Positions 33,278 to 44,737 of a DNA stretch of 51,648 nucleotides are shown piece after piece (position 1 is the first letter of the stretch; each line of letters begins with the position of its first letter). Both the position numbers and the translations under genes were made by a program. Source of the stretch: Opitutia bacterium Tous-C4FEB (GTDB lineage: Bacteria; Verrucomicrobiota; Verrucomicrobiia; Opitutales; Opitutaceae); contig NEVA01000024.1 in assembly GCA_002304445.1 (NCBI GenBank), positions 1 to 51,648 of the forward strand, given 5' to 3'. The notes under the pieces are model-generated. The model was not told the origin of the DNA. It saw only the letters and a program-made list of their open reading frames with translations, and searched no databases.

Positions 33278-35242
33278 ATGTCCAAAGGTTTCGCCTCAAA
33301 TTCCCGTCAGCTGATCCTCGCGACATTCGTGTTGCTGAGTTTCGCTGGGGTGGGAGCGCGCCTCGTTTGGCTGCATGTTATTGATCGGGATTCCTTGCTG
33401 GGCTTCGTCTCCAAGGCGCGCTTCAAAATCGACCCCATTCCGGCTCGGCGCGGTGACATCTTGGATACCAACGGCGCGAAACTCGCGACGAGCCGTTCCC
33501 TGATCATCTTGGGAGTGGATCCTCAGATTTTGCGTAAAGAGGACGAAGCCAAGTGGCCCCGGCTCGCCAGCTTGATTGGCCTGCCGCTCGCTGAACTGAC
33601 CAAGATTTTCAACACGAAGAACCGACCGCTCGATAGTGCTGCGGCTAGCCGCCGCTCTGATGCAGAATCGAATCAGCGCGGGGGCGAGACGGGACCATTA
33701 AAGTTCGACCTCATGGCTGCGACGACCAAAGCCGATGTTTTGCCCCAAGCGGATGCGGACGACGAAGCGGAAGAGGAAACGAACGGCGATTCCTCCGGGG
33801 GCCGGCCGATTCGCTGGGCGAAGTTGAGCGATACGATTACTGAATCCACGTTCGCGGCGATCAATGCCCTTGGGGTCAAGGGCGTCTATGGCAAGCGGGT
33901 CTACCGGCGCGCTTACCCGAACAATGCCTTGGCCGCGCACATCATCGGCTACGTCGATCGCGAGGAACGGGCGGTCACCGGCATCGAACGATACGCGGAC
34001 AGTTATCTCCACGGACACAACGGTTGGATTGAATCCGAAAAAGACGGCAAGCGGGAGGAACTCGCCCAATTCCGCAGCCGTGAGGTTCCGGCTTCAGACG
34101 GCTACAGCGTAAAGCTTTCGATCGACGCGGTGGTGCAGCAAATTGTCGACGAGGAACTCGCCGCCATCGCAGCCAAGTTCGCGCCCGAGAAAGCCACCAT
34201 TATCGTCAGTGACCCTCGCACCGGCTTCATCTTGGCGCTCGGGAACTATCCGTCGTTCGATCTCAATCGCTACAACCTGTTGTCGAAGGAAGAGGAGGGT
34301 CGGATGCGTAATATCGCATTGGCCGACATGTATGAGCCCGGCTCTGTCTTCAAAATCGTCGCGGCGGCCGGGGCAATGAACGAAAGGCTCGTCACCGCCC
34401 AAACGACGTTCGACTGCAGTCGTCCGACCGTTGACTACAAGGGCCGGACGCGGAGTTTGCCAAAAGATGATCACACCTACGACCACCGCCTTTCGGTCGC
34501 GGAGATTGTAGCCCGATCCTCGAACAAAGGGGCCGCGCACCTCGCCATGGCGATGGGCGACGAGCGGTTTTACAATTACGCACGGGCCTTCGGCTTCGGC
34601 CGCACCACCGGATTTCCGAACCTCGGCATCGAAACGCCGGGGATGCTCGCCGCGCCAAAAAATTGGGACGGTCTCACGATTACCCGGATCCCGATGGGGC
34701 ATGCGGTGGCTGCGACCCCGTTGCAGATGCATCAAGCCATGTGCGTCATCGCGAGCGGGGGACTTCTGATCAAGCCCAGCGTGATCCGCCAGGTAACCGA
34801 CGCTGCGGGCGAAATCGTCTTTCGTTTCGAGGGGCGCGTCGGTGAGCGCGTGATATCCGAGCAAGTAGCCCGTGAAGTTGCCCGGCTCTTACAAGGAGTG
34901 GTGGCAAAAGGAGGCACGGCACCCGATGCGGCGATCAAAGACTACGAGGTCGCGGGAAAGACCGGGACGACGCAAAAGATCATCAATGGCGTCTACTCCA
35001 ACCAGGCCCACGTGGCGTCGTTCGTCGGATTCCTGCCGGCGTCCCGGCCGCAAGTCGCGATCTCCGTAATCGTCGACGGAGCAAAACTAAATCTCACTAG
35101 GGGCGCGGCGTATGGTTCAAAAATTGCCGCCCCTTCGTTCACGCTCATCGCCGAGAAGCTCATCCGGCATCTCGACATCAAGCCCGTCGCACCGTCGGTC
35201 GCGGCGTCGGGTTCGTTGCTGGCCACAAACGGAGTTCGCTGA
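33278..35242 (+). CDS. ftsI: Peptidoglycan D,D-transpeptidase FtsI (PBP3)
   Basis: Cross-links septal peptidoglycan. 654 residues from ATG 33278, which has AAGGAG 5 bases upstream; a GTG 6 bases earlier is less likely. N-terminal membrane anchor about 10-28, dimerisation domain (RRGDILDTNG), then the transpeptidase with Ser356 of SVFK, SSN at 414-416 and KTGT from Lys561. A hydrophilic, acidic insertion of about 65 residues (roughly 112-180, with DADDEAEEET) breaks the pedestal region and is not usual. The last bases overlap the murE start (TGATG). Confidence 0.95.
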   Translation: MSKGFASNSRQLILATFVLLSFAGVGARLVWLHVIDRDSLLGFVSKARFKIDPIPARRGDILDTNGAKLATSRSLIILGVDPQILRKEDEAKWPRLASLIGLPLAELTKIFNTKNRPLDSAAASRRSDAESNQRGGETGPLKFDLMAATTKADVLPQADADDEAEEETNGDSSGGRPIRWAKLSDTITESTFAAINALGVKGVYGKRVYRRAYPNNALAAHIIGYVDREERAVTGIERYADSYLHGHNGWIESEKDGKREELAQFRSREVPASDGYSVKLSIDAVVQQIVDEELAAIAAKFAPEKATIIVSDPRTGFILALGNYPSFDLNRYNLLSKEEEGRMRNIALADMYEPGSVFKIVAAAGAMNERLVTAQTTFDCSRPTVDYKGRTRSLPKDDHTYDHRLSVAEIVARSSNKGAAHLAMAMGDERFYNYARAFGFGRTTGFPNLGIETPGMLAAPKNWDGLTITRIPMGHAVAATPLQMHQAMCVIASGGLLIKPSVIRQVTDAAGEIVFRFEGRVGERVISEQVAREVARLLQGVVAKGGTAPDAAIKDYEVAGKTGTTQKIINGVYSNQAHVASFVGFLPASRPQVAISVIVDGAKLNLTRGAAYGSKIAAPSFTLIAEKLIRHLDIKPVAPSVAASGSLLATNGVR

Positions 35243-36828
35243 TGCTTGGCTATCTTTCATCCAATCATGCCTTGATCGCCGCGTTCGCGCCTCGCCAAGT
35301 GCGTCGCACGCGGCACGAAACGCTTTCGCTCAATCGCGTCTTCAAGCAGGCGCCGAAGCTCGCCGACTATTTTGAGGACGTTGAAATCCCCGGGCTGAAA
35401 GGGAGCCTGGACCGCCCGATCTCCGGTGTCGCTTTTGACAGTCGGCGGGTTTTGCCGGGAAATGTTTTCTTTGCGATTCCCGATCTTGGTCGCGGCGCGG
35501 GTAACTCGATCGACGAGGCGGCCAGTCGTGGTGCGGTGGCGATTGTCACAGAGACCATGCCGGCGTTTCCACCGTCGAAGGTCACTTTCATTCAGGTGGC
35601 CGATGCCCGGGCGGCGCTCGCGCGGTTCGCACAGCGCTACTTTAAATTCCCTGACCGTGATCTTTCCGTCGTGGGCGTCACCGGCACGGCCGGAAAAACA
35701 ACCGTGGCGCACTTGGTCAAATATTTCCTCAGTGGCGATCAACGGGTGGGGCTTATCGGCACGATCAATTACGATTTGGGCGCGCGCGTCGTCCCTGCGT
35801 ATCGCAGCACGCCGGAGTCGCTCGATATCTACGGCATGATGGCTCAAATGCGCGATGCGGGTTGTCGCCAGGCGGTGCTCGAGGTGACCGCCGGAGGCAT
35901 CGGCCAAAAACGCGTGCACGGCGTCCAACTGGCAGCCGCGGTGTTTACGAACCACGCCGATGGAAATGAAGCGGGAGCCGGTTCACCCGAGGCTGATTTC
36001 GGCGTGAAGTTGCGTCTCTTTTCCGGAGAGGCCGGTCCCCTGCCCAAAGCGGCCGTTGTGAACCTTGATGATTCGTACGGCGCGGCGCTGCTGGCGGCGC
36101 TCCCGCCCGAGGTTCGCCGGGTAACTTTTGGGGAAAATGCTTTTGCCCAAGTTCGGGCTGCAAATGTGGCGTTCACCTCAAGGAACACGACCTTCACGCT
36201 GGTTTGGCCCGGCGGGGAGATGTCGATTGATTCACCGCTGATCGGACGCGCAAATCTCAGCAACCTTCTCGCCGCGGTCGCCACCGCTTGGAGTCTGGGG
36301 CGTGACCCTGTGGTCTTTCTGGCCAAGCTGCGTGCGTTCAAAGGTGTTCCCGGCCGCATGGAGCGCATCGACGCCGGGCAGTCGTTCAATGTGTTCGTCG
36401 ACTATGCCCGTACGTCTGACGCAATCCGACAATCGCTCGGGGGGTTGCGCTCACTCACCTCCGGTCGATTGGTTGTCGTCTTTGGCAGCGGCGAAAATCT
36501 AAACCGCGCCGGCCGATCGCAGTTGGTGCAGACGGTGCAAAGCTTGGCGGATTTTTCGGTCGCTACCGCGAATAATCCCGGTTCCGAGCCGATGGCCGAT
36601 AGTTTCGCGGAAATGAGCGCGGGTGTCAGCGACTCCCAGCGCATCGAATGGATTGCCGATCGTCGCCAGGCGATCGCGCGGGGCATCGCGATCTGCGAGC
36701 CGGGAGACACGCTGCTCATCACTGGGAAAGGCCATGAAAGTTACCAGAAACTGGCTGACACCGTCGTGCCATTCGACGACCGCGAGGTTGTTCGGGAGCT
36801 CATCGTCAGCGGCATGGAAAAGTCCTGA
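35242..36828 (+). CDS. murE: MurE-like Mur ligase with altered amino-acid site
   Basis: By position (ftsI-murE-murF) and overall alignment this is UDP-MurNAc-L-Ala-D-Glu ligase, which adds the third stem residue. 528 residues. Kept: the DSRRVLPGNVFFAI domain 1 segment, P-loop GTAGKTT (Lys152), STPESLD, the carbamylated-Lys position Lys256, NLDDSYG, and GKGHESYQ. Changed: the NLxxDHLDYH segment is shortened to NHADGN (237-242). YAHTPDA is YARTSDA (388-394), GCGGDRDxGKRP is GSGENLNRAGRS (415-426), and the diaminopimelate motif DNPR is NNPG (444-447). An N-terminal extension of about 30 residues is also present. ATP use seems possible, but the normal third-residue site is gone. It could add another residue or be a pseudoenzyme. 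Confidence 0.85.
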   Translation: MLGYLSSNHALIAAFAPRQVRRTRHETLSLNRVFKQAPKLADYFEDVEIPGLKGSLDRPISGVAFDSRRVLPGNVFFAIPDLGRGAGNSIDEAASRGAVAIVTETMPAFPPSKVTFIQVADARAALARFAQRYFKFPDRDLSVVGVTGTAGKTTVAHLVKYFLSGDQRVGLIGTINYDLGARVVPAYRSTPESLDIYGMMAQMRDAGCRQAVLEVTAGGIGQKRVHGVQLAAAVFTNHADGNEAGAGSPEADFGVKLRLFSGEAGPLPKAAVVNLDDSYGAALLAALPPEVRRVTFGENAFAQVRAANVAFTSRNTTFTLVWPGGEMSIDSPLIGRANLSNLLAAVATAWSLGRDPVVFLAKLRAFKGVPGRMERIDAGQSFNVFVDYARTSDAIRQSLGGLRSLTSGRLVVVFGSGENLNRAGRSQLVQTVQSLADFSVATANNPGSEPMADSFAEMSAGVSDSQRIEWIADRRQAIARGIAICEPGDTLLITGKGHESYQKLADTVVPFDDREVVRELIVSGMEKS

Positions 36829-38237
36829 TGCTCGCTTTTGATCCCACGCACCTTGCCCGCTGGACGTCCGGAAAGTGGACGTCGGTCCCGGTCGTGCCGC
36901 TGCGCGGCTTTAGTATCGACTCGCGGGGCACGCGCGCGGGCGAGGTGTTTGTCGCGCTGAAGAGCGCGACCCGCGATGGTCACGACTTCGTCGCCGCCGC
37001 GGCAGCGCAGGGCGCAGCGGCCGCACTTGTTGCCGTGGCGAATCCCGAGCTTAGCCTGCCGCAACTTGTCGTCGCCGATCCGCTCACGGCCTTTCAAGCG
37101 ATTGCCCGCGAGCATCGGCGGGTTTTCTCCGGGCCGGTCGTCGGCATCACCGGCAGCGCGGGCAAAACCTCGACCAAGAATCTTCTTACGTTGTTGCTCG
37201 GTGGTTCTGCGCCTGGGGAGCCGGTGCTTTCAACCGAGGGAAATCTCAACAATCACCTCGGCGTTCCTCTTACGCTGACCCGACTGGATCCGGCCCGGCA
37301 TCGATTCGCGGTGATTGAAGCCGGCATCAGCGCGCCCGGCGATATGTCGACCTTAGCCTCAATGATCGAGCCCGACCTCGCGCTTACGACGCTCATCGGT
37401 CCGGCGCATATCAAGGAATTGGGTTCGCTTGAGGGCGTCGCGCGCGAGAAATCGCGGTTGTCCGCTTCTGTCCGTTCGGCCGGTGTGGCAATCTTTCCCG
37501 CCCAGTGCGCGGGCTTCGGACCGTTCCGTGAGCTCGGCGTTCGCCAAATGATCATCGAGCCGTCGGAGGTTCTCCCGCCGGTCGCCCCACCCGCTGATCG
37601 GGTTTACTTTGTGACCACCCAGCGGGGAAACACCACGTCCATCGCGCTCGCCTATGGTGAGCATCCGCCGCTCGCTTTTGCCTTTTGCCGGGTAACCGAT
37701 GGCATGGCGCAAAATGCGGTTATTGCGATTTGCGCCGCGCTTAGGCTCGGGGTGACTCGCGACGACATTCAAGCCCGGCTGGCTGCTTATGCTCCGGGCC
37801 CAATGCGGGGAGAGTGGCGAAATACTTCGGAGAACGTGTTCTATCTTGATTGCTACAATGCCAATCCGGCTTCGATGCATGACGCGCTTGGAACGTTTTG
37901 CGCAGTCGCTCCGCAAGATTCACCCCGTCTTTTCGTGCTCGGCGGCATGGAGGAGCTGGGACCACTCGCGGCCAACCATCATCGCGAGTTGGGCCGTGCG
38001 TTGGCGCTGCGTCCCGGTGACGAAGTGGTGACGATCGGAGACCACGCGGCCGAAGTGTTCGCCGGAGCGCTGGAGCGGGGCAATCAAGCCACGGCCGTGG
38101 CGATTGCCACCGATCTCTCGGACATCGCCGACCGAATCAATCGTTTCCGCGGTGCAATCTTCGTGAAAGGCAGCCGCCGATACCAACTCGAACGCGCTCT
38201 GCCGGCGGCCCTCGCGCCCGCCTCCGCCCATGTTTAG
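36828..38237 (+). CDS. murF: UDP-N-acetylmuramoyl-tripeptide--D-alanyl-D-alanine ligase
   Basis: Adds D-Ala-D-Ala to the UDP-MurNAc-tripeptide. 469 residues. Domain 1: FSIDSRGTRAGEVFVAL. P-loop GITGSAGKTSTKNL (about 104-117, Lys retained), STEGNLNNHLGVPLTL, the E and H ligands in IEAGIS and GPAHIKELGS, the carbamylated-Lys segment AREKSRL, DCYNANPASMHDAL and VLGGMEELG. Unlike its neighbours MurE and MurD-like, all catalytic motifs are present. Start overlaps the murE stop (TGATG); its end overlaps mraY by 8 bases. Confidence 0.94.
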   Translation: MLAFDPTHLARWTSGKWTSVPVVPLRGFSIDSRGTRAGEVFVALKSATRDGHDFVAAAAAQGAAAALVAVANPELSLPQLVVADPLTAFQAIAREHRRVFSGPVVGITGSAGKTSTKNLLTLLLGGSAPGEPVLSTEGNLNNHLGVPLTLTRLDPARHRFAVIEAGISAPGDMSTLASMIEPDLALTTLIGPAHIKELGSLEGVAREKSRLSASVRSAGVAIFPAQCAGFGPFRELGVRQMIIEPSEVLPPVAPPADRVYFVTTQRGNTTSIALAYGEHPPLAFAFCRVTDGMAQNAVIAICAALRLGVTRDDIQARLAAYAPGPMRGEWRNTSENVFYLDCYNANPASMHDALGTFCAVAPQDSPRLFVLGGMEELGPLAANHHRELGRALALRPGDEVVTIGDHAAEVFAGALERGNQATAVAIATDLSDIADRINRFRGAIFVKGSRRYQLERALPAALAPASAHV

Positions 38238-39357
38238 TTATCTCGCAGAATACTCTGACCAATTCGGACCTCTCCGTGTGCTCCGTTACATCAGCGTGCG
38301 CACCCTTGGCGCCACGGGGACGGCGGCGATCATCGGATTTATCATCGGTCCGTGGCTGATCCACCAGTTACGCCGGCTGAAGTTTGGCCAGCATTACGAT
38401 GACGACCGGACCGGGGACCTCGCGCAGCGTTTCGACAAAAAGAATACGCCCACGATGGGGGGCTTGCTCATCTTCGGCTGTGTGTTCCTGAGTTCGGTGC
38501 TGTGGGCGACGCCCAATGTGTGGGTCGTGACGGCGCTCTTTGTCTATGCCGCGCTCACCGCCGTGGGCTTTCGGGACGATTACCTGAAGGTGGTGCACAA
38601 AAACCGCGATGGCATCTCTTCGCGTGAGAAAATTTTCTGGCAAACGCTGATCACGGTTGTGGCCTTGGCCGTGCTGCTTTGGCACCCGACCAGCGCCGGC
38701 AAAATCCGCGAGCTCTGGGTCCCGTTTATCAAGCATCCCTTGCTGGTGTTCTCCGGCATCTTGGGTCTGCCCGCCTTGTTTATCTTCATTTACCTGTGGC
38801 TCGTGGGGTTTTCCAACGCGATCAACCTCACCGACGGGCTCGATGGTCTGGCGATCGGCTGCACGATCAGCGTCGCGTTGGTTTACGGCATTATGGCGTA
38901 TGCCGCGGGCAATATTCTTATCTCGGATTATCTCTTGATCAGCTACGTGCCGGGCACCGGCGAACTCACCGTGCTTTGCGGTGCGTTGGTCGGAGCCGGC
39001 GTGGCCTTTCTTTGGTACAACTCCCACCCGGCGGAAGTTTTTATGGGCGATACGGGATCACTGGCCCTCGGCGGGTTGATCGGAATCATCGCCTTTATGG
39101 TGCAGCAACCGCTCACCCTGATTATCGTCGGCGGCGTATTTGTTTGGGAGGCGGCGTCGGTCATCATCCAAGTCGGCTACTTCAAATATACCAAACGCCG
39201 GAGCCCGACCGGGCAGGGGAGTCGCTACTTCCTGATGGCTCCGATCCATCATCATTTTCAGAAAAAGGGTTGGCCCGAGACCAAGGTCGTCCTGCGGTTT
39301 TGGGTCCTGTCCCTGATCTTCGCCCTGATCGGTCTCGCAACGCTGAAGATCCGCTAA
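38230..39357 (+). CDS. mraY: Phospho-N-acetylmuramoyl-pentapeptide-transferase
   Basis: Inner-membrane enzyme that makes lipid I from UDP-MurNAc-pentapeptide and undecaprenyl phosphate. 375 residues with about ten membrane helices. Motifs: KKNTPTMGGLLIF (about 72-84), the catalytic pair in FRDDYLKV, NAINLTDGLDGLAIG, GDTGSLALGG, and APIHHHFQKKGWPE with the His cluster. Intact. It overlaps the end of murF. Confidence 0.97.
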   Translation: MFSYLAEYSDQFGPLRVLRYISVRTLGATGTAAIIGFIIGPWLIHQLRRLKFGQHYDDDRTGDLAQRFDKKNTPTMGGLLIFGCVFLSSVLWATPNVWVVTALFVYAALTAVGFRDDYLKVVHKNRDGISSREKIFWQTLITVVALAVLLWHPTSAGKIRELWVPFIKHPLLVFSGILGLPALFIFIYLWLVGFSNAINLTDGLDGLAIGCTISVALVYGIMAYAAGNILISDYLLISYVPGTGELTVLCGALVGAGVAFLWYNSHPAEVFMGDTGSLALGGLIGIIAFMVQQPLTLIIVGGVFVWEAASVIIQVGYFKYTKRRSPTGQGSRYFLMAPIHHHFQKKGWPETKVVLRFWVLSLIFALIGLATLKIR

Positions 39358-39428: not shown

Positions 39429-40439
39429 ATGTCGCTCACCACCCCCATATTCCTTCGCCCGTTGCTGGCTCGTCCCGTTGCAATCCTCGGTGCCGGTGCG
39501 TGCGGCCGTGGTCTCGCCGCCTTGTTGGATAAACTCGGGGTCATTGAATCTCAGGTTTATGACCAAGCACATGGCACGGCGTTTGATTTCAACACGGACG
39601 CGGCCGCGCGATGCGGATTGGTGATTTTTTCATCGGATTTCCGCTCCGATCATCCGTGGCTGGCGACCGCGAGGGCTGCCGGTTGCGAGTGTATGGGTGA
39701 ACTCGATTTTGCGGCGCTCTTTTGGCGCGGTCAGGTAATCGCGGTCGCCGGTTCTGAAGGACGAGAGACCCTGGTCGATTTTCTAACCTTTGCTCTGCGG
39801 ACGAACGGTTTTGAGGCCAGCGCCGTTTGCGACCGACGGTATCCCTTCGCTCAACTGGTCGCCGACTGCGGCGGCGGGTCGCTCGCGGCGGCGGAAAAAA
39901 TTGCCGTCTGCGAGGTGAACCCAAGCCAAGCCGGAACGCTGCGGCATTTCCGTGCGGATGCCACGCTTTGGACGAGCTTTTCGGAGTCGGATTCCGATGG
40001 GTATTCTAATCCCGCGGCCTGCTTTGCGGCCAACTGGACGCTCGTTGCCTGCACGGCTCCGGGCGGCTTCGTCGCGGGTAGTTCCGTGCAGGTCTTTGCC
40101 TCACGTTGGCATCTCCCGCTGCCGGCTCGTGCAGCCGTGGCGACGGTGGCGCAGCCCGCCGATCCCCTTCTCGCCGATACCCTCTTTGCGACGTATCCCA
40201 TGCGGGAGAGTTTTGTTTTGGCCGCCGCTTGGTGGGTGGCCGCCGGTTTCCAACCTGGTGAACTTTACGCCGCAGCCCGCACCTTCCGACTGGCTCGGAA
40301 ATGCCCGGGCTCCGATGTCGAAACGGTGGGAACAGCACGCGGGTCAAATTCGAAAACTACCGATTTCTTGAGCCCAGATGCGTCGCCCGGAAACTCCACT
40401 GCGCTGCACGCGATGACTCTGCTAAATCGTCCATATTGA
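39429..40439 (+). CDS. murD: MurD-like protein without catalytic residues (truncated)
   Basis: Sits in the murD slot (after mraY) and aligns to MurD, but as a 336-residue protein instead of about 450. Domain 1 is recognisable: VAILGAGACGRGLAALLDKLGV, then SSDFRSDHPWL and MGELDFAALFWRG. The P-loop GTNGKTT reads GSEGRET (108-114). The ELSSFQ segment is EVNPSQ (Glu162 kept); NxxEDHLDRH is SFSESDSDGY (183-192), without a gap; the carbamylated Lys of FAAKW is Asn202 (FAANW). NDSKATN is SNSKTTD, and domain 3 stops soon after. ATP-dependent ligase activity is therefore very unlikely. The frame has no stops or shifts. The frame is open far upstream, antisense to nothing but overlapping mraY; ATG 39429 fits the family start. 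Confidence 0.8.
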   Translation: MSLTTPIFLRPLLARPVAILGAGACGRGLAALLDKLGVIESQVYDQAHGTAFDFNTDAAARCGLVIFSSDFRSDHPWLATARAAGCECMGELDFAALFWRGQVIAVAGSEGRETLVDFLTFALRTNGFEASAVCDRRYPFAQLVADCGGGSLAAAEKIAVCEVNPSQAGTLRHFRADATLWTSFSESDSDGYSNPAACFAANWTLVACTAPGGFVAGSSVQVFASRWHLPLPARAAVATVAQPADPLLADTLFATYPMRESFVLAAAWWVAAGFQPGELYAAARTFRLARKCPGSDVETVGTARGSNSKTTDFLSPDASPGNSTALHAMTLLNRPY

Positions 40440-40476: not shown

Positions 40477-41403
40477 ATGAAAATCATCCGTGTATTCGGC
40501 GTCGTCGTGGGCATCCACCTCTTTGCGCTCATGCTTATTTTTGCCAATCCGGGCTGCAGCTCCACGAGCAAACCGGCCCCGAAACCCGCTGAGACTGCTT
40601 CGGCGCCGGCGCCGTCCGCTCCCGTGGTGACGGTTCCGCTCGCCGGTGCCGCCGATGCGTCGTCGATCTCGGCCGCGCCGATCGGGTTTGATCCTGCCGC
40701 GCCCGCCGTTGCCGGCGTCCGTTACTCGCCGACCCGTCCCGGCACGCCGGCTGCGAGCGCCATCGTCGCTGCGCCTGTCGCCGATGTCACCCCGGCCACG
40801 ACTTACCTCGTCGCAAAAGGCGACAGCCTTTGGACGATCGCGAAGAAGAATCAACTGACGGTCGCTGAACTTGCCGCTGCAAATAATCTCAAGCCGGCAA
40901 GCACCCTCCGGCTCGGTCAAAAATTGATTATCCCCGGCAAAGCTCCGGTGTCCGGAGGAGCAGGCACCGCCCAGTCTCCGGCGGCGTCAACAGTTCCGAT
41001 GGCGACACCGGCAAATGGCGCGACACCGGCGGACGCATCCAAGGCCAAGGGCGAATCCATCTCCCATACCGTCAAAATGGGTGAATCTCTCGGCACCATC
41101 GCCCGCAAGTACGGTGTTCGTCAGGGCGACATCGCGGTGGCCAACAACATCACGGATCCGCAGAAAATAACCGCCGGACAGATTCTCTCCATCCCCGGAT
41201 GGCAGACACCTGTCGGCAAAGCCAAGGCTGCCGCGAAGCCCGGTGACCCTGTCGCCAAGCCGGCCGAGCCCGCTCGATCCTATTTTGTGGTGCCCCCCGT
41301 CGAGCAAGATCTCGACTCTGGACTCAAGCCGGTACCCGTGACCGAAGTGCCCGTCATCAGGGTCGACGATCCCGCGGCGCCCGCGCCTAAACCGGCGCCT
41401 TGA
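40477..41403 (+). CDS. Two-LysM-domain putative lipoprotein within the dcw cluster
   Basis: 308 residues. N-terminal hydrophobic segment ending at a possible lipobox (FANPGC, Cys27), so it may be a lipoprotein or a membrane-anchored periplasmic protein. After an Ala/Pro-rich linker come two LysM motifs that bind glycan chains: about 109-152 (TYLVAKGDSLWTIAKKNQ, LRLGQKLIIPG) and about 196-240 (HTVKMGESLGTIARKYGV, ITAGQILSIPG). The tail is Pro/Ala-rich. Its place between murD-like and ftsW suggests a wall or septum role. LysM genes are not a standard dcw member. Confidence 0.85.
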   Translation: MKIIRVFGVVVGIHLFALMLIFANPGCSSTSKPAPKPAETASAPAPSAPVVTVPLAGAADASSISAAPIGFDPAAPAVAGVRYSPTRPGTPAASAIVAAPVADVTPATTYLVAKGDSLWTIAKKNQLTVAELAAANNLKPASTLRLGQKLIIPGKAPVSGGAGTAQSPAASTVPMATPANGATPADASKAKGESISHTVKMGESLGTIARKYGVRQGDIAVANNITDPQKITAGQILSIPGWQTPVGKAKAAAKPGDPVAKPAEPARSYFVVPPVEQDLDSGLKPVPVTEVPVIRVDDPAAPAPKPAP

Positions 41404-41481: not shown

Positions 41482-42642
41482 ATGTCGCCCGCGTCCGTCG
41501 CACCTTCCAGAGCCAGTCTCTTCGTCAATCCGGCCGCATTGATCGCGGTCTGTTGCATCGGCCTCACGATTCTCGGGCTGACGATCTTATTCAGTGCAAG
41601 TGCCTCGTTTCGACAGGGACCCTACTTCTATCTTAACAAGCAACTGATCGGCGTCTTCCTTGCCGGGGTGGTCTGTTTCGTGGCGAGCCGCGTCAACCTC
41701 GACTATGCGCGTCGCTACGCGTGGTGGATTGCCGGCATCACGCTCTTTCTCCTCGTGCTGGTACTGATTCCACACATCGGAATTGAGGTGAAAGGCAGTC
41801 GCCGCTGGCTCGGCTTGGGACCGGTTCGCGTGCAAGTCTCCGAGTTCGCCAAACTCGGTTTGGTCTTCTGCCTCGCGCATTATCTCGCGCTTAATCAGAC
41901 GCGAATCGCCGAGCTTACCCGCGGCTATCTTTATCCGCTCGCGATCATCGGCGCCTTCGCGGGCCTCATCGTGCTCGAGCCCGACTTTGGCACGGCGGCC
42001 CTTGTTGTCGTCGTTGGCCTTACCATGCTGTTCCTCGCCGGCGCCAAGTGGCGCTATATCGTGCCCACGGTCGCTTTGGTCGTATCGGCGTTCACGATTT
42101 TGGTCGTCAACAATCCCAACCGCTTGCGCCGGTTCTTGGCCTTTCTCGATGTTGAGGGCAATAAGCAGGGCGGCACTTATCAGCTCTACCAAGCACTGGC
42201 CGCCTACGCGGCCGGAGGCACGGACGGTGCCGGTTTGGGACAGGGACGTCAGCAACTCAACTTTCTGCCCGAGGCGCATACCGACTTCATCTTTGCCGTC
42301 ATCGGCGAGGAATTGGGCCTTTGGTTCACTTTGGGCGTGGTTGTGGTCTTTGCGGTGATTTTTATCGCGGGATTGGTCCACCTTCGGCGCGCCCCCAATC
42401 TGTTTCACTTCCTGCTGGTAGTGGGCTGCCTCATGTTGATCTGTCTCCAAGCCATTGTGAATCTCGGCGTGGTTACCGGTGTTTTTCCCACCAAGGGTAT
42501 GTCGCTGCCGTTTATCAGCGCCGGTCTCTCCAACCTGCTGCTGATGGGATTACTGGTCGGCATTTTTCTCAACACCCAGCGCACCTGGGGCCGCGCAGTT
42601 CTGGCCGAAGACTCCCGCGCGATGCGCGAAGTATCTGTATGA
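41482..42642 (+). CDS. ftsW: Lipid II glycosyltransferase FtsW
   Basis: SEDS-family membrane enzyme that polymerises lipid II at the septum with FtsI. 386 residues from ATG 41482; a GTG at 41416 would add residues without homology. About ten membrane helices. Motifs: KGSRRWLGLGPVRVQVSEFAKL, LEPDFGTAALV, GAGLGQGRQQLNFLPEAHTDFIFAVIGEELG (conserved extracytoplasmic loop), and TKGMSLPFISAGLSNLL. Stop overlaps the murG start. Confidence 0.95.
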   Translation: MSPASVAPSRASLFVNPAALIAVCCIGLTILGLTILFSASASFRQGPYFYLNKQLIGVFLAGVVCFVASRVNLDYARRYAWWIAGITLFLLVLVLIPHIGIEVKGSRRWLGLGPVRVQVSEFAKLGLVFCLAHYLALNQTRIAELTRGYLYPLAIIGAFAGLIVLEPDFGTAALVVVVGLTMLFLAGAKWRYIVPTVALVVSAFTILVVNNPNRLRRFLAFLDVEGNKQGGTYQLYQALAAYAAGGTDGAGLGQGRQQLNFLPEAHTDFIFAVIGEELGLWFTLGVVVVFAVIFIAGLVHLRRAPNLFHFLLVVGCLMLICLQAIVNLGVVTGVFPTKGMSLPFISAGLSNLLLMGLLVGIFLNTQRTWGRAVLAEDSRAMREVSV

Positions 42643-43766
42643 GCCACTTTCTCATTTCTTGCGGCGGCACGGGCGGCCATCTCTCACCGGGCATCGCGTT
42701 GGCCGAGGGGCTGGCGGAGCGCGGTCACGCTGCGACGCTCCTGATCAGCGAGAAGAAAGTCGACGCGCGGCTGATTGAAAAATACCCGCACTTGAGTTTC
42801 GCCCGGATGCCCGGCTCGGGTTTTGCCTGGCACCCGGTGCAACTGGCCCGGTGCATCGTTTCCCAATTGCGGGCGTTGCGTTTTTGTCGGCGGCTCATCC
42901 GCGAACGTGCGCCGGATGGCATCGTCGGCTTTGGCGGATTCACTTCAGCGCCCGTGGCACTGGCGGGACGGCTCGCGGGTTTGCCGGTGATGTTGCATGA
43001 GTCCAACCGGGTGCCGGGTCTTGCGATCCGCACGCTCGGGCGATTTGCGACCCGGGTCTATCTGCCACCGGGGGTGCACCTCGGCAGTGTCCGGGCCGCT
43101 GCGACCCGCTATGCGGGACCGCCCGTCCGCCGAGAAATCGTGCGCACGCCGCAGACCGCAGCGCGGATCGCTCTCGGATTAGATCCCGCTCAAAAGTTGC
43201 TTGTTTTGCTCGGTGGCAGCCAAGGGGCGAGTGCACTCAACCAGTGGGCCCGTGACCACGTCGCTTCGCTCGCAAACGAGGGCGTTCAACTTTATTGCGT
43301 GACGGGCCTGGGGAAGGGCGCGGCCGAGAATCTCGATCTGAGATCGAAACTCGGCTCGCCGGTGCGCTCGGTGTTTATCCCGTTCAGCGATCGCGTGGCC
43401 GAACTGCTCTCGGCGGCTGATCTGGTGGTTTCCCGGGCCGGAGCCGGATCGATCGCCGAACTCATCCGGTGTGAAAGCCCGGCCATTCTGATCCCGTTTC
43501 CGCACGCGGCGGATGACCACCAACGCGCCAACGCCTCATTCTTCGAGCGTCAAGGCGGCGGCATCGTCGTCGAACAGTCGGGTCTTGGGAATCTCCGGGC
43601 TGAGGTGCTTGAACTGATTTTCAACGATTGGTTGCTCCGAAAATTCCGAGGCAATCTCCGGCGAATGGATCGGGAGAACTCGCTCGACCTGATGTTGCGG
43701 GATTTGGAAACCCTCACCGCGCCGACCGGGGAGCCCCGGCGGGCGATAAACGCCGTCGCCCGATGA
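42639..43766 (+). CDS. murG: Undecaprenyldiphospho-muramoylpentapeptide beta-N-acetylglucosaminyltransferase
   Basis: Adds GlcNAc to lipid I to give lipid II on the inner face of the membrane. 375 residues from ATG 42639, overlapping the ftsW stop (ATGA). The frame is open upstream within ftsW but without homology. GT-B fold motifs: GGTGGHLSPGIAL (9-21), GFGGFTSAPVALAG, MLHESNRVPG, LGGSQGASALN and SRAGAGSIAEL. Intact. It is followed at once by murB, not murC. Confidence 0.96.
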   Translation: MSHFLISCGGTGGHLSPGIALAEGLAERGHAATLLISEKKVDARLIEKYPHLSFARMPGSGFAWHPVQLARCIVSQLRALRFCRRLIRERAPDGIVGFGGFTSAPVALAGRLAGLPVMLHESNRVPGLAIRTLGRFATRVYLPPGVHLGSVRAAATRYAGPPVRREIVRTPQTAARIALGLDPAQKLLVLLGGSQGASALNQWARDHVASLANEGVQLYCVTGLGKGAAENLDLRSKLGSPVRSVFIPFSDRVAELLSAADLVVSRAGAGSIAELIRCESPAILIPFPHAADDHQRANASFFERQGGGIVVEQSGLGNLRAEVLELIFNDWLLRKFRGNLRRMDRENSLDLMLRDLETLTAPTGEPRRAINAVAR

Positions 43767-44737
43767 TGACTGCGACCGTTTCTAGACTATCGGGTGACGT
43801 CGCGTTTTGGGACGAATTCTTGGCGACGGTTCGCCCGCGGCTCGGTGAAACCGCTAAGTTTACCCGCGGAGAACCGCTCGCGGCGAAAACCACGATCCGG
43901 ATCGGGGGGGCCGCGCGTCTTTATGCCGAGCCCGGTTCGGTTCGTGATTTTCAGACGCTGATGGTCGCGGCGGCCGCAGCGGGCATTCCCATTTTCCCGT
44001 TGGGACGGGGTTCGAATCTGGTGGTCCCGGATGAAGGCGTTGACGGCCTTGTCCTCTCGCTGGCGCACGAAGCCTGGGCGGTTTTCGAGCCGCGCGCCGA
44101 CGGGCTTTTGTGGGTCGGGGCCGGGCTTCGGCTGAAAAACTTATGCGGCTTGGCGGCCAAAACGGGACTCACGGGGTTTGAGTTTCTGGAAGGAATTCCG
44201 GGCAATGTCGGGGGCGCCTTGCGGATGAATGCCGGGGCGATGGGCGGTTGGATGTTCGATGTGGTGGAGGAGGTGCGATTCATTTCACTGGATGGAACGG
44301 TGCGCACCGCGAGTCGCGCCGAGATGCACGTCGATTACCGGCACTGCGCCGAACTTCAGACTGCGATCGCGCTTGGCGCTTTGCTCCGGCCGGTCGCGCC
44401 TGCCGATACGGAATCGGTTGCCCGGCAGATCGACGTCTACAAAAAGAAACGGCAGGAATCCCAGCCGCGGGACCCGAGTGCGGGCTGCATTTTCAAGAAT
44501 CCACCCGGGAACTCAGCCGGCCGGCTGATCGACCAAAGCGGCCTCAAAGGGGAGCGGGTAGGGGACGCGGAGGTTTCACCCATTCACGCCAATTTCATCG
44601 TCAATCGCGGGTCGGCCACCAGTGCCGAACTGATCGCTTTGGTGCGAACGATCCGGAAGCGCGTCGCTGACGCCCATGGGATCGAACTCGAACCGGAGGT
44701 TTTGCTTTACGGCAAAGAATGGCGCGACGTGCTTTAA
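43763..44737 (+). CDS. murB: UDP-N-acetylmuramate dehydrogenase
   Basis: FAD/NADPH enzyme that reduces enolpyruvyl-UDP-GlcNAc to UDP-MurNAc. 324 residues from ATG 43763, overlapping the murG stop (ATGA). FAD-binding segments NTTIRIGGAARLY-like (TTIRIGGAA, 43-51), FPLGRGSNLVVPD (78-90), FLEGIPGNVGGALRMNAGAMG and YRHCAEL. The catalytic proton-donor segment reads SAGCIFKNP with Cys242 where E. coli has Ser229; the final Glu (ELEPEV) is present. MurC, which normally lies before or around murB, is absent. Confidence 0.95.
   Translation: MMTATVSRLSGDVAFWDEFLATVRPRLGETAKFTRGEPLAAKTTIRIGGAARLYAEPGSVRDFQTLMVAAAAAGIPIFPLGRGSNLVVPDEGVDGLVLSLAHEAWAVFEPRADGLLWVGAGLRLKNLCGLAAKTGLTGFEFLEGIPGNVGGALRMNAGAMGGWMFDVVEEVRFISLDGTVRTASRAEMHVDYRHCAELQTAIALGALLRPVAPADTESVARQIDVYKKKRQESQPRDPSAGCIFKNPPGNSAGRLIDQSGLKGERVGDAEVSPIHANFIVNRGSATSAELIALVRTIRKRVADAHGIELEPEVLLYGKEWRDVL

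Follow-up and report, generated by a model that had tools for sequence, protein, structure and literature searches.

A catalytically dead MurD under purifying selection, and repeated loss of MurC and MurD in the Opitutaceae, suggest a salvage route for the peptidoglycan stem peptide

At the murD place in the division cluster of the Opitutaceae genome Tous-C4FEB lies a MurD homologue, here called murDx, in which the catalytic motifs are replaced and domain 3 is lost, and which has been held under purifying selection in three species. The window, that is the whole stretch of 51,648 nucleotides analysed, also encodes a MurE that has lost catalytic residues, searches of the genome assembly turned up neither a MurC nor a further MurD, and MurC and MurD have been lost together repeatedly in the family. 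We consider it rather probable that, taken as a whole, these features reflect salvage, with peptides of muropeptides entering precursor synthesis via Mpl and MurF and the dead MurD and MurE being kept as structural parts. A wider proposal, that lake bacteria, many of them with genomes of 3-8 Mb, have repeatedly dropped MurC, MurD and often MurE catalysis, live by AmpG/Mpl salvage of wall peptides of other cells and have turned dead MurD and MurE into scaffolds at least twice, is put forward tentatively, as a real possibility that falls somewhat short of being probable.

The reading frame of murDx is clean, with zero internal stops over its 336 residues, and every change that the initial annotation had listed in it (GSEGRET, SDSDGY, Asn202 and the loss of domain 3) was found as described (Table 1). 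Motifs were compared with the intact 440-residue MurD of the congener G011, to which murDx is 56% identical and with which it shares its place in the cluster, between mraY and the LysM gene, so that it is a MurD by descent and by position. Further replacements are seen at residues 164-166, which read NPS instead of SSF, and in the QREN motif, where Gln has become Met258 and Asn has become Ser261. A column was counted as conserved if 24 or more of 25 intact MurDs from Opitutaceae agree in it; 98 such columns fell within residues 1-285, and 28 of these are altered in all three species of the window's own clade. The TIGR01087 murD model scores murDx at 37.1 bits, below its equivalog cut-off of 211.95; searches of murDx against Pfam families gave no match up to an E-value of 1, and phmmer against the sequences of the PDB found nothing. 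AlphaFold2 predicts the first 290 or so residues with confidence and disorder over residues 291-336, and the model's best Foldseek matches in the PDB are MurDs (E 1.5e-12). To judge by its residues, murDx would be unable to bind ATP and Mg or to add D-Glu, and it is without the third domain of an active MurD, which bears out the earlier view that it is no D-Glu ligase. The SPG and GNIG loops, which we take to be the UDP-MurNAc contacts in MurD, are also replaced, and on this ground murDx would be unable to hold UDP-MurNAc-Ala. The initial annotation had suggested that it binds this compound, and here it was not upheld: UDP-MurNAc-Ala is the product of MurC, and a sensor role is unlikely because no MurC was found in the genome. 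No obvious Shine-Dalgarno sequence was seen upstream of murDx, which counts against our main reading.

Table 1. Positions in the window of murDx, its altered motifs and the genes of the surrounding cluster
Feature	Position	Strand	Remarks
Pseudo-MurD (murDx)	39429..40439	+	336 aa, made up of domains 1 and 2 and a 46-residue tail predicted to be disordered
SSDFRSDHP	39630..39656	+	Replaces SPGFAPEHP of intact congener MurD; SPG to SSD at residues 68-70
Dead P-loop GSEGRET	39750..39770	+	Residues 108-114; canonical GTNGKTT; K112R, T113E
CDRRYP	39828..39845	+	Replaces GNIGYP; GNIG to CDRR at residues 134-137
SESDSDGY	39981..40004	+	Replaces AEDHLERH (metal/ATP segment); SDSDGY is residues 187-192
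Asn202 at position of carbamylated Lys	40032..40034	+	By alignment to intact MurD
Predicted disordered tail, residues 291-336	40299..40436	+	Stands where domain 3 is lost
Pseudo-MurE	35242..36828	+	528 aa; still recognised by the MurE models of Pfam and NCBIfam; has lost catalytic residues; dN/dS 0.09
MurE EVTAGGIGQKR and TNHADGNEAGAG	35881..35982	+	Replace EVSSHGIDQQR and TNLTRDHLDYH
MurE VDYARTSD, FGSGENLNRAGR, NNPG	36397..36591	+	Replace VDYAHTDD, FGCGGNRDRSKR, DNPR
MurF	36828..38237	+	Motifs kept; GSAGKTS at 37152-37172
MraY	38230..39357	+	murDx lies between this gene and the LysM gene
LysM protein	40477..41403	+	After murD place
MurG	42639..43766	+	murB directly after; starts chosen by homology
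MurB alone	43763..44737	+	MurC-MurB fusion stands here in relatives with MurC

The window's genome (G000) and two sister species (G007 and G010), assembled as separate MAGs, carry the dead murDx in forms that are 90% identical. Since the losses are common to all three, their divergence gauges selection after catalysis ended. The three species pairs give dN/dS values of 0.16, 0.21 and 0.19, the remaining genes of the cluster giving 0.03-0.43 in the same own-clade comparison, and only 36 of the 102 differences between G000 and G010 are nonsynonymous, against an expected fraction of 0.70-0.74 (p 6e-13 and 3e-16). The tail (residues 289-336; dN/dS 0.44-0.48) is loosely held and the two-domain body (segments at 0.09-0.25) is not. 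Catalytic loss common to several species and followed by purifying selection marks murDx as a conserved pseudoenzyme, and agrees with the initial annotation, which had taken the gene to be kept open in the division operon and had proposed that its orthologs be compared for motifs and dN/dS. Intact MurDs in close relatives, which would have pointed to a recent pseudogene or an assembly error, were not seen in the two nearest species; in the sister clades the murD gene is deleted, and an intact MurD is present only in the more distant congener G011.

A shortened MurD has been made separately in a second lineage (L154, L156 and L158), where a 280-residue protein without domain 3 stands beside a broken MurE and has GTRGKTR as its P-loop and Gly at the Lys position. 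Its dN/dS is 0.08-0.10 at dS 0.5-1.3, and it is predicted to fold (mean pLDDT 87). The two lineages have lost 28 and 43 of the 98 conserved columns, 21 of them the same (hypergeometric p 1e-4), and the 48 columns lost by neither look like fold core.

Four Mur-ligase middle domains were found in the genome of the window (39 contigs, 3.76 Mb, 96% complete), those of MurE, MurF, Mpl and a FolC-type protein, the last two assigned from sequence. The genome search for a canonical MurD that had been advised found none in the assembly, and since the murD model finds nothing better than murDx, a second MurD elsewhere in the assembly is ruled out. A search with the murC model did not find MurC in this genome either. 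Among 27 genomes, this model gives 288-298 bits to the MurC half of a MurC-MurB fusion in four (G004, G011, G068 and G072), and in the other 23 its best match is Mpl (216-245 bits), weaker still in G010, G012 and G061. Relatives with MurC have at the murB place the MurC-MurB fusion, which is 810 aa long in G011 and 770 aa in G004, so the MurC half has been cut out in the window. The MurE of the window has lost the P-loop Asn and the His of SSH; in DHLDYH the Asp and both His are gone, in DYAHT the His, and in DNPR the Asp and the Arg. Its own-clade dN/dS comes from G000 and G010, both of which have the murE losses, the murE of G007 lying off its contig. The de novo peptide-adding steps thus appear to be missing in this genome, MurC and MurD not being found and MurE being dead by its residues. 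The motifs of Mpl are kept in all six genomes aligned. No Mpl was found in G010, G012 and G061, all incomplete genomes, and this counts against our main reading. The initial annotation had not noticed that MurC is lost, that the MurE at 35242-36828 is dead or that the pattern recurs across the family.

Within the window's genus (g1; 13 genomes, 68-96% complete), 11 genomes show neither MurC nor an intact MurD, the exceptions being G011, with both, and G004, with MurC and with contigs that break at the murD place. Two sister clades have murD cleanly deleted (mraY-LysM-ftsW), and the window's own clade keeps the remnant. To the best 80 of 319 loci related by mraY, some of which are genus members again, 18 later loci and the window were added, giving 99. 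Eighteen of these 99 are cut before the needed genes and have one or both states unread; among the 81 with both states known (from the same best 80 of 319, the 18 and the window), 45 have MurC and MurD, 29 have neither, 6 are without MurC and have a dead MurD, and a single one (G098) is without MurC and has a full MurD, where presence of MurD means any frame with a MurD match and L154, L156 and L158 were set as dead by hand. Parsimony on the tree of these loci (best 80 of 319, 18 and window, leaving out L320, a second piece of G109, and L321) requires at least 5 changes of MurC and at least 7 of MurD, and in the Opitutaceae changes of MurC come nearly always together with changes of MurD; an independent-pairs test of the two had 4 supported pairs only, all of which agree (p 0.125). 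As G098 and G191 keep a full-length MurD with no MurC detected (in G191 the contig ends before the murC place), the loss of MurC probably precedes that of MurD.

In 79 of 250 genomes of the family, incomplete ones included, no match separable from Mpl was found with the MurC search, the line being drawn where E-values jump from 1e-41 to 6e-34. Thirty of these 79 genomes, chosen as at least 95% complete, were searched again; MurD was recognisable in three (G098, G191 and, as a piece at a contig end, G134) and was not found in the other 27, among which G284 is also without MurE and MurF. All 30 have a match of Mpl type; outside the window's genome, Mpl and FolC are names given by the pattern of PF08245 matches and not checked one by one. 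One genome, G125, is a single contig of 4.15 Mb and 100% complete; its matches are MurE, MurF, Mpl-type and FolC-type only, its cluster displays both the MurC and the MurD deletion, and the 714 bases that separate lysM from mraY contain no clear remnant of murD. This genome, together with the deletion junctions in continuous clusters, rules out incompleteness of MAGs as the general cause of the absence of MurC and MurD. The genome sets are not independent, as G067 is the same genome as G002 and several of G057-G080 recur in the family sample G081-G293 (G076, for example, is G191).

The state of MurE follows that of MurC in most lineages. All of 17 catalytic positions of MurE are unchanged in 40 of 41 loci with MurC, the exception (L163) being a frame break, and at least one is changed or missing in 25 of 33 loci without MurC, where the P-loop Asn is affected in 25, the His of SSH in 14 and the carbamylated Lys in 11; these counts include L156, which is cut by the start of its contig and whose missing positions were scored as changed or deleted. 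The remaining 8 of the 33, G125 among them, are unchanged at all 17 positions, and this counts against our main reading, since a pure tripeptide route needs no MurE. Some dead MurEs are tightly constrained, with dN/dS of 0.07-0.17 in G292-G109 (where values for neighbouring genes include some over-long frames), in L154/L156/L158 and in the window's own clade, but others evolve loosely, with dN/dS of 0.38 and 0.54 in other pairs, which also counts against our main reading. MurE thus decays after loss of MurC in most, not all lineages, and tight constraint is found only in some. A change of the MurE P-loop from GTNGKT to GTSGKT is the sole change among the 17 positions in, for example, L096, L099, L101, L102, L104 and L119, and is apparently the first step after MurC loss.

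Genomes without MurC and MurD commonly carry the muropeptide permease AmpG. The AmpG model gives 165-198 bits in 18 of 21 such genomes (the exceptions being G000, G060 and G063) and in 3 of 15 others (G079, G080 and G076, the last itself without detected MurC), with a weaker AmpG-like match of 124-140 bits in G011, G072, G075 and G078; all of these scores, taken from 36 chosen genomes, fall short of the curated cut-off of the model (350 bits). In the larger sample, the close type of AmpG (type 1) is present in 57 of 79 genomes without MurC and in 41 of 171 with MurC (Fisher p 6e-13, kinship ignored), where the counts, and four split matches besides, were entered by hand, unlisted genomes were scored as negative and two AmpGs of 44-47% identity (G036 and G263) were scored as type 1 by E-value. 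Against the association stand the 22 of 79 genomes that have neither MurC nor type-1 AmpG, as well as the 41 that have both. In g1 and several genomes without MurC (e.g. G064, G066 and G076), AmpG lies near genes for NagZ, an AmpD-like amidase (a weak match) and AnmK; a GHL10-type glycosidase and an enzyme of the dipeptide-epimerase type are also encoded nearby, as is MurQ in some, the GHL10 and MurQ assignments being a reading of the sequences. Among the proteins of this recycling island in L237, only AnmK, an M20 hydrolase and a NagB-type protein score over the NCBIfam cut-offs. In G125 and G057 AmpG is present without the surrounding island, and neither AmpG nor the island was found in the window's own assembly, both of which count against our main reading. 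In this assembly the upstream flank of the island is found on contig C21, 4.3 kb from its start, and contig C38 opens at base 1 with the downstream flank, within the M20 gene of the island, so the island probably falls in an assembly gap, which would explain the absence of AmpG. Bases 1-4300 of C21 (L264) hold ORFs for an MFS transporter, a DUF1643-like protein and a Fic-type protein (the latter two by reading) at the place where the sister species have the island boundary; each of the three species has a different sequence at this boundary, which is perhaps an insertion hotspot. In genus g7 (G109, G271, G290 and G292) a single frame of about 645 residues gives a split AmpG match, the two pieces lying on either side of an insertion of about 200 residues.

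On the account that we favour, the stem peptide in this branch of the Opitutaceae would no longer be built stepwise by MurC, MurD and MurE. AmpG would take up muropeptides of outside origin, which NagZ- and AmpD-type enzymes would trim to L-Ala-D-Glu-mDAP; Mpl, which is reported to attach this tripeptide to UDP-MurNAc (PMC3060825), would carry out the same ligation here, and MurF, MraY and MurG would finish the precursor. With peptides arriving via Mpl and MurF, catalysis by MurC, MurD and MurE would be redundant; MurC would have been lost first, MurD then deleted or truncated, and the active site of MurE lost. As its MurE appears dead, the window's species would need the whole tripeptide, which favours salvage through Mpl; in lineages with an intact MurE, Mpl may instead admit a dipeptide. 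Dead MurD and MurE may persist in some lineages as structural members of a Mur/MraY/MurG assembly, and a scaffold for MraY, MurG and MurF had been the alternative offered for murDx in the initial annotation; such a role possibly accounts for the selection seen on both in the same cluster, although sister clades manage without MurD.

Other explanations have to be weighed against salvage through Mpl. It is unlikely, though a serious contender, that the lost steps have been replaced from within, by an Mpl broadened to L-Ala or L-Ala-D-Glu or by an unrelated ligase, with no use of outside wall material. An L-Ala-D/L-Glu epimerase would make L-Ala-D-Glu from ordinary dipeptide, and the epimerase-type genes of the island are in keeping with internal replacement, as are the 8 of 33 loci in which MurE is unchanged in spite of the loss of MurC, two pairs of which are constrained (dN/dS 0.06 and 0.13), and the size of genomes without MurC, which reaches 8 Mb, unlike that of dependent symbionts. 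The Mpl of P. arcticus is also weakly active on the shorter substrates, with reported rates of 0.7/min for L-Ala and 1.4/min for L-Ala-D-Glu against 260/min for the tripeptide (PMC3060825). With MurE dead in the window's own clade, though, a dipeptide route alone cannot complete the peptide there, and Mpl looks much the same whether or not a genome has MurC, the other five aligned being 77-83% identical to that of the window's genome. We know of no candidate replacement ligase.

The retention of the dead proteins can also be read in two further ways. That dead MurD (and MurE) have acquired a new function, in which they would regulate wall synthesis by binding some other ligand or partner, would agree with the strong constraint on proteins whose old catalytic and substrate loops are gone and with the convergence of two lineages, but no new conserved motif stood out in an unsystematic look, the conserved columns that are retained look like fold core, and the sister clades live without the gene; we regard this as improbable. 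Plain decay, with murDx a pseudogene open by chance or an assembly error, is more doubtful still and is rejected as very unlikely, given that three MAGs carry the same dead form at dN/dS of 0.16-0.21, that values are lower still in the second lineage, and that confident folds are predicted for the dead MurDs. This is so even though decay would account for the loss of catalytic sites and of domain 3, for the loosely evolving tail, for a GC3 slightly lower than that of 14 neighbours (0.629 against 0.686-0.761) and for a dN that is the highest or joint highest among the cluster genes compared.

The enzymes from MurC to MurF count as essential in textbooks and are targets of drugs. Compared with known MurD (TIGR01087; PDB 2jfg and 3lk7), murDx is alike in its place in the dcw cluster and in the predicted fold of domains 1 and 2, and differs in that the P-loop, metal segment, carbamylated Lys and substrate loops are replaced and domain 3 is missing. 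Peptidoglycan is present in the Opitutaceae, as sacculi have been isolated from Lacunisphaera IG16b, an isolate of the family that is reported to encode murB and murC together (PMC5303756). The MurC-MurB fusion of Verrucomicrobium spinosum is the same as that of Opitutaceae with MurC (PMC4803751, PMC12283558), but that species reportedly cannot do without murCB, murD and murE (PMC12283558), whereas here the MurC half and MurD are gone. Some planctomycetes, of the same superphylum, are reported to have lost murC and murD along with murA, murF and murG (PMC12283558). A known parallel in wall material is Fidelibacter multiformis IA91, which is reported to build its wall from fragments of other bacteria and whose class lost peptidoglycan synthesis genes and kept recycling genes (PMC11652737). 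IA91 is described there as unable to make MurNAc, D-Ala, D-Glu or DAP, in contrast to the Opitutaceae studied here, which keep MurB, MurF, Ddl, MraY and MurG; many of the present genomes are also of 3-8 Mb and have dead Mur ligases under selection, and their dependence on muropeptides is something we infer. Tannerella forsythia, a MurNAc auxotroph, is alike in salvaging wall material and in having AmpG, but it is without MurA and MurB and needs the sugar (PMC5388701, PMC7670621), whereas in the present case it is the peptide-adding steps that have gone, with MurB retained. Known Mpl is reported to work beside MurC to MurF and to be non-essential (PMC3060825); here it would be the only entry point. 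A literature search largely without subscription journals found no report of loss of MurC and MurD in the Opitutaceae or of conserved dead Mur ligases. With 79 of the 250 sampled genomes lacking a detectable MurC, one of them a single contig, a wall built on Mpl alone becomes testable, as does murein peptide as a traded nutrient in lakes; structural roles of Mur ligases also become testable apart from catalysis, which has here been removed while the protein was kept.

Some minor observations concern neighbouring functions. The glutamate racemase MurI model (TIGR00067) reaches its cut-off in none of 37 Opitutaceae genomes (G000-G012 and G057-G080), including those in which MurC and MurD are intact, with one weak fragment in G072. 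The neighbourhood of the Mpl gene resembles housekeeping genes on a reading of the sequences. The LysM protein lies between the murD place and ftsW in all the clusters examined that reach it, and it stays when murD is deleted.
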